64,000 nucleotides of DNA from an uncultured bacterium (GTDB lineage Bacteria; Verrucomicrobiota; Verrucomicrobiia; CAIQCK01), in NCBI GenBank assembly GCA_903870275.1, contig CAIQCK010000034.1, positions 1 through 64,000 on the forward strand, written 5' to 3'. Positions 54,367-54,894 of the stretch are shown one piece after another; position 1 is the first letter of the stretch; every line of letters begins with the position of its first letter. A program made the translations under genes and the position numbers. Under the pieces are notes generated by a model that did no database searches, was not told where the DNA came from, and was given only the letters and a program-made list of their open reading frames with translations.

Positions 54367-54894
54367 ATGAAGCTTCACATCATTTCCCTCAGTGTGGTTG
54401 CCGCGATGTTGTTGCTGACGCCGGTATCGCGGGCGGCCAGTCCCTCCTCAGGTTTCGCCGTTGGCCAGACGGCCCCGGAAATCACCGGCAAAGACCTCGA
54501 CGGCAAACCGATGAAATTGAGCGAGTTTCGCGGCAAGGTCGTGGTGCTGGATTTCTGGGGGCATTGGTGACCACCCTGCCGGGCGATGATCCCGCACGAG
54601 CGGTCGCTCGTGAAACGACTCGAAGGCAAACCGTTCGCGCTCCTCGGCATCAACAGCGACCGGGACCGTTTTGAAATCCGGCGCACCTGCAAAGCGGAGC
54701 AAATCACCTGGCGGTGTTGGTTTGACGGTGGCGGCACCAGCGGCCCGATCGCGAGCTCTTGGGGTGTGCGCATGTGGCCGACGATCTACGTGCTCGATGC
54801 CAAAGGCGTGATTCGCTACAAGGACGTCCGCGGCGAAGCAATGGATCAAGCCGTGGATACGCTTCTTGCCGAGCTGCCCAAAGGCGGCAAATAG
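54367..54894 (+). CDS. TlpA-like thioredoxin with in-frame TGA at the active site (selenoprotein candidate)
   Basis: An exported thiol-disulfide oxidoreductase of the TlpA/AhpC-TSA type, 175 residues if the TGA at 54568-54570 is read through. Signal peptide about 1-23 (ending SRAAS). The N-terminal half runs APEITGKDLDGKPMKL to VVVLDFWGHW. The next codon, residue 68, is TGA exactly where the first Cys of W-C-P-P-C belongs, so the site reads W-U-P-P-C-R-A-M. The frame continues without break for 107 codons with clear homology (IPHERSLVKRL, LLGINSDRDR, WPTIYVLDAKGVIRYKD). A 7-bp hairpin with a GGUC loop lies 24-41 nt after the TGA, as in bacterial SECIS elements. A TGC-to-TGA nonsense mutation is the alternative. 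No selA/B/C/D gene is in the window. Confidence 0.68.
54568..54612 (+). promoter_or_regulatory. In-frame UGA with SECIS-like hairpin
   Basis: TGA 54568-54570 is followed by a perfect 7-bp stem, CACGAGC (54595-54601) with GCTCGTG (54606-54612), closed by the tetraloop GGTC (54602-54605). The loop lies 31 nt after the TGA, within the range reported for bacterial SECIS elements, and shares the GGUC loop with E. coli fdhF. The same bases also encode the conserved H-E-R-S-L-V, so part of the pairing could be chance. Confidence 0.55.

Follow-up and report, generated by a model that had tools for sequence, protein, structure and literature searches.

The window (the whole stretch of DNA that was analysed, 64,000 nucleotides) carries on its forward strand a TlpA/ResA-like gene with an in-frame TGA. 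The frame begins with ATG at 54367, reaches the TGA at 54568-54570, continues for 107 sense codons and ends with TAG at 54892-54894. When the TGA is translated as selenocysteine (Sec, U), the active site reads DFWGHW-U-PPC. The features of the locus are as follows.

54367..54894, + strand: TlpA/ResA-like gene, predicted selenoprotein of 175 aa with U68, stop TAG (translation; Pfam PF00578/PF08534)
54367..54435, + strand: predicted N-terminal export signal, with a hydrophobic core and an SRA|A site, read by eye
54568..54570, + strand: predicted UGA codon for Sec (U68), the residue that opens the UPPC motif; TGA is kept in close homologues
54577..54579, + strand: Cys71 (TGC), second active-site residue, present at codon +3 in 89/89 TGA forms counted
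54595..54612, + strand: putative SECIS hairpin with a stem of 7 bp and a GGUC loop (54602-54605), -10.5 kcal/mol (homologue conservation, covariation and synonymous-site freezing)
54778..54780, + strand: Pro138, in the conserved W-P-T motif; it does not vary in alignments A1 and A3

The Pfam matches span the UGA (PF00578, 81 bits with a gathering threshold of 26; PF08534, 81 bits). Each half alone also matches the PF00578/PF08534 families, in the correct order (5e-7 upstream and 4e-9 downstream). The sequence-only reading had described a TGA at the first Cys of a TlpA-like thioredoxin followed by 107 further codons, and this description was exact, with homology crossing the UGA. It had also expected gene callers to split the gene, and the mechanical list of open reading frames indeed cuts it into products of 81 aa and 102 aa. 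As in a selenoprotein gene, the UGA lies in frame at a functional position and the frame behind it is intact.

The AlphaFold2 model had a pLDDT of 87 overall and of about 97 over most of the TlpA-like domain, with a pTM of 0.80; residues 7-26 had low pLDDT. In this model, the first active-site helix starts at residue 69, directly behind U68, and Cys71 is the partner of U68. The nearest solved folds, by Foldseek and sequence-profile matches, were ResA and other thiol-disulfide oxidoreductases. The features that define TlpA/ResA-like proteins were all found: a thioredoxin fold, a redox pair where helix 1 begins (U68/C71) and a loop with a conserved Pro (P138). By analogy, Pro138 is expected to be the cis-Pro of the thioredoxin fold. 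The N-terminus, judged by eye, reads like a cleavable export signal. The predicted function is most likely extracytoplasmic thiol-disulfide exchange in which Sec makes the attack.

The window's genome (7.13 Mb, 93% complete) was searched for selA, selB, selD and tRNA-Sec, whose lack had been named as grounds for giving up the selenoprotein reading. All four were found; the Sec machinery is not absent. The genes selA (506 bits), selB (293 bits, above the cut-off) and selD (390 bits) are clustered on one contig, and the tRNA-SeC gene, with anticodon tca, is on a different contig from selD-selA-selB. The selB product has the SelB-specific beta-barrel and both C-terminal winged-helix domains. The selD gene of this genome (L018, contig C69:81191-82111) likewise contains an in-frame TGA (SCAGUAAK). 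The hairpin behind it has 9 bp, a GUG loop and a spacing of 33, or, in an alternative pairing, 8 bp, a GGUGC loop and a spacing of 32. The genome therefore holds, besides tlpA, another UGA-containing selenoprotein gene, a canonical one whose geometry is similar. A standard ORF call shortens the SelD of this genome, itself a predicted selenoprotein.

The hairpin behind the tlpA UGA has the sequence CACGAGC-GGUC-GCUCGUG. A 7-bp GGUC hairpin had been reported from the sequence at 31 nt behind the TGA; the hairpin was confirmed, and the 31 nt hold for its loop, but the stem already starts 24 nt past the UGA. The published bacterial SECIS model has a loop of 3-9 nt, a stem of 4-16 bp and an energy of <= -7.5 kcal/mol (PMC13188914), with a G in the first two loop positions and a spacing of 16-37 nt from the UGA (PMC13188914). 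Scoring with such a model had been proposed, and the hairpin fits it (4-nt GGUC loop, 7 bp, 31 nt, -10.5 kcal/mol). In single-sequence folding, the hairpin alone was not beyond chance (z = -0.55, 51/200 shuffles as stable), and of the 180 UGAs in this GC-rich window that have an open frame both before and after them, 8 are followed by a comparable hairpin. By itself, then, the hairpin does not stand out in GC-rich DNA; therefore, the case rests on the comparison of homologues. An Rfam scan of the region gave no SECIS or other family above threshold. When the other hairpin-bearing UGAs of the window were translated as Sec, a Pfam match was obtained in 0/7, so no additional selenoprotein was found in the window by that route.

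Among 93 related genomes, all six intact close Verrucomicrobia homologues carry TGA at this codon (five from the same family and one from the same class). The 18-nt hairpin is identical in all six and in most Planctomycetota TGA forms. A sixth genome of the same family (G004) has only a decayed fragment (L072:3235-3690, G004:C288), which has lost the 5' half and the active site and in which the hairpin is disrupted; selA and tRNA-Sec are still present in that genome. tRNA-Sec was found in 7/7 Verrucomicrobiota relatives that carry the TGA form or what remains of it. When 388 genomes were sampled evenly from the phylum, no TGA form beyond that of the window's genome was found at the threshold used.

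In Planctomycetota, 86 of the 392 sampled genomes had a strong match, and 82 of these 86 had the TGA form, some of them in several copies (four at most). selA was found in 78/82 TGA carriers versus 164/310 other Planctomycetota genomes (one-sided Fisher p = 1.3e-14, from species counts with phylogeny ignored). The other four TGA-carrying genomes had no selA match, perhaps because their assemblies are incomplete. Cys forms (TGC/TGT) with intact frames occur in Mariniblastus/Pirellulaceae and elsewhere, and most of the genomes that carry them retain selA. The homologues had been proposed as a check on this codon, and they bore it out: close intact copies have TGA, and more distant ones have TGC or TGT with an intact frame. 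Cys homologues at the Sec position, a further mark of selenoproteins, are thus present, and the close TGA and distant TGC/TGT forms are, judged by their codons, a classic Sec/Cys pair.

In one relative (G022), tRNA-Sec, selD(U), selA, a SelW-like gene (U), selB and tlpA(U) lie on one strand within 7 kb (L074:518-7330). The SelW-like selenoprotein has a CSSU motif and matches PF10262 (L074:3516-3752). The neighbours of the window gene, namely the 892-aa ORF upstream, pyrR and pyrB, were not beside the relatives' copies in the flanks examined. Two or three TGA-form copies lie close together on one stretch of contig at several Planctomycetota loci (L112, L116, L148, L135, L092 and L158), as tandem selenoprotein duplications. 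One selenoprotein paralogue (L071, G006:C206) has neither Cys nor Sec at the first active-site position (A-D-T-C), and from its sequence it is probably not a conventional thiol oxidoreductase.

Of the 92 TGA forms, 79 fitted the SECIS model; of the 46 Cys forms, none did. Among these 79, a GGUC loop at a spacing of 31 was found in 78; 13/92 TGA forms did not fit the model at the standard spacing. Synonymous positions in the hairpin are nearly frozen: Arg+11 is CGG in 78/79, Ser+12 is TCG in 79/79, and Leu+13 is CTC in 82/83. The observed/expected ratio of these codons, with expectation from codon usage, was 2.4-4, whereas most other codons of the gene are near 1. Outside this trio, Arg+4 is a further exception, being CGG in 62 sequences. 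RNAalifold gave no consensus pairs for the mixed set of 92 sequences; therefore, the specified helix was tested explicitly, and it scored well. Double changes were seen in four of the seven stem pairs (8 cells); 0/500 shuffles scored as high, and the slid controls were all lower. The shuffle control ignores the relatedness of the sequences, so the covariation supports the helix rather than proving it by itself. Compensatory examples are CAU..AUG in L147, AAC..GUU in L150 and GAAC..GUUC in L154/L158.

In one subgroup, PHEK mostly replaces PHERS, and six of its sequences have a 7-bp hairpin, a CGUGA loop and a spacing of 38. The stems of these hairpins differ in sequence with pairing preserved, and several other members of the subgroup have no clear hairpin. 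From its sequence, the CGUGA hairpin looks like a re-sited SECIS. TGA forms with this hairpin include L121, L122, L111, L135 and L155.

We consider it almost certain that the gene encodes an exported thioredoxin-fold oxidoreductase of the TlpA/ResA/DsbE type with Sec as the nucleophile, where Sec insertion and export are predicted steps. SelB with Sec-tRNA-Sec would bind the GGUC-loop hairpin that starts 24 nt past the UGA, and Sec would be inserted at U68. Translation would then continue in frame through the complete thioredoxin domain, the product would be exported, and the U68-C71 selenenylsulfide/selenol pair would carry out extracytoplasmic thiol-disulfide exchange. Support for the selenoprotein reading is strong: the frame, the two-sided homology, the conservation of TGA and hairpin in two phyla, the compensatory changes and the Sec genes all agree with it. 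The sequence-only reading had proposed the gene as a candidate selenoprotein, and the sel genes, tRNA-Sec, TGA conservation and the SECIS model now give that proposal strong backing.

A pseudogene, made by a nonsense TGC->TGA change in an ordinary TlpA gene or by a sequencing error, is very improbable. A single base separates TGA from TGC, the phylum commonly has ordinary TlpA proteins with Cys, and decay does happen, as the fragment in G004 of the same family illustrates; against this, the same codon is TGA in independently assembled genomes of two phyla, the protein sequence past the UGA is conserved, the hairpin codons are frozen, and tlpA is linked to the Sec machinery in G022. This reading was rejected, being refuted by the conservation of TGA across many genomes. 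We give just as little credence to a UGA that is a true stop, with a separate 102-aa product and a regulatory hairpin in between. A mechanical 102-aa ORF does begin at ATG 54586, and most members have Met at codon +6. However, the two halves together form one thioredoxin fold, the second half alone lacks the active site and the first strands, and the hairpin is absent from every Cys form tested. Codes in which UGA is recoded or read through occur in other bacteria, but Trp/Gly recoding or suppressor read-through is the least credible reading here, since the UGA is at the catalytic Cys position where Cys forms have TGC/TGT, the genome has tRNA-Sec, SelA, SelB and SelD, and TGA ends 23/40 long open frames in the window as the commonest stop (weak evidence, with many chance frames among them).

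With the Sec-containing oxidoreductase as the preferred reading, the gene can be compared with known systems. A UxxC/UxxU Prx-like thiol:disulfide oxidoreductase selenoprotein (PF00578, WP_010940744.1) and a UxxC Redoxin family selenoprotein (PF08534, with representatives HEU0032618.1 and MBA3499694.1) are both catalogued (PMC9312934, PMC13188914), and Planctomycetes are known as Sec users (PMC4807772). The window gene falls in the class of PF00578 proteins with UxxC (81 bits, UPPC). By description, which is the level at which WP_010940744.1 was compared, the Prx-like selenoprotein shares the Pfam family, UxxC and Sec in first position; in contrast, the present clade occurs in Planctomycetota/Verrucomicrobiota, with a near-invariant SECIS of its own. 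The Redoxin family selenoprotein, also compared by description, shares its Pfam family with a nearly equal score and UxxC, and it may be the same family as the present clade under a loose name.

The nearest Sec model in NCBIfam is NF041054 (ResA-like WAxxUGC), which likewise describes a ResA-like thioredoxin fold with an active-site Sec. However, the window protein reached only 33 bits with a cut-off of 300, and its motif is UPPC, whereas that of NF041054 is UGC. ResA, TlpA and DsbE (CcmG) proteins (4nmu, 1st9, 1jfu, 2b1k) have the same fold, with strong profile and Foldseek matches, but they carry CxxC where the window protein carries UPPC. The scores for their NCBIfam models were below the cut-offs (ResA 72/170, TlpA 55/230 and DsbE 43/123 bits); thus, the window protein resembles ResA/TlpA/DsbE in its working and is not classed as any of them. 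None of the NCBIfam models covers the window protein. The gene is likely broken in two by standard callers and no NCBIfam model exists for it; therefore, it is probably widely mis-annotated.

UxxC selenoproteins of PF00578/PF08534 are already known as a broad class, and the abundance in Planctomycetota and the SECIS record raise the interest of this one. On the sequences sampled, the centre of the clade is Planctomycetota, not Verrucomicrobiota. What looks new from these sequences is a large Planctomycetota/Verrucomicrobiota clade with a near-invariant SECIS and, in one subgroup, a second SECIS-like hairpin at a shifted position; a published description of the clade was not found in the main texts of the open-access literature. 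The redox protein occurs in about a fifth of the sampled Planctomycetota genomes, often in several copies. The alignment is of value for SECIS rules: two phyla share one frozen hairpin, compensatory changes are present, Cys forms lack the hairpin, and in one subgroup it seems to have moved. Position and loop requirements of the SECIS become directly testable through this natural alignment.

In a quick tree (130 columns, many weak forks), the verrucomicrobial TGA clade lies within the TGA diversity of Planctomycetota, the G022 copy stands apart from that clade, and the Mariniblastus Cys clade is a nested branch. Such a topology suggests that the gene was transferred into Verrucomicrobiota and that Cys took the place of Sec; the direction of transfer and the number of Sec/Cys switches are only suggestions because of the 130 columns and the many weak forks. 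A broader account seems to us about evenly balanced between right and wrong. It holds that these genes would form a distinct exported Sec-TlpA family centred on Planctomycetota, with Sec ancestral and several Sec-to-Cys replacements. Some Verrucomicrobiota would have received a near-invariant SECIS cassette of 18 nt, and the SECIS of one subgroup would have been re-sited 7 nt downstream with a CGUGA loop.

Downstream of the gene, window:55007-55067 gave a sub-threshold Rfam match to the PyrR binding site (28.5 bits with a threshold of 54). Behind the match come a GC-rich stretch and a run of T, and a pyrR-pyrB-pyrC-like gene cluster lies directly downstream. This region is possibly a pyrimidine attenuator.
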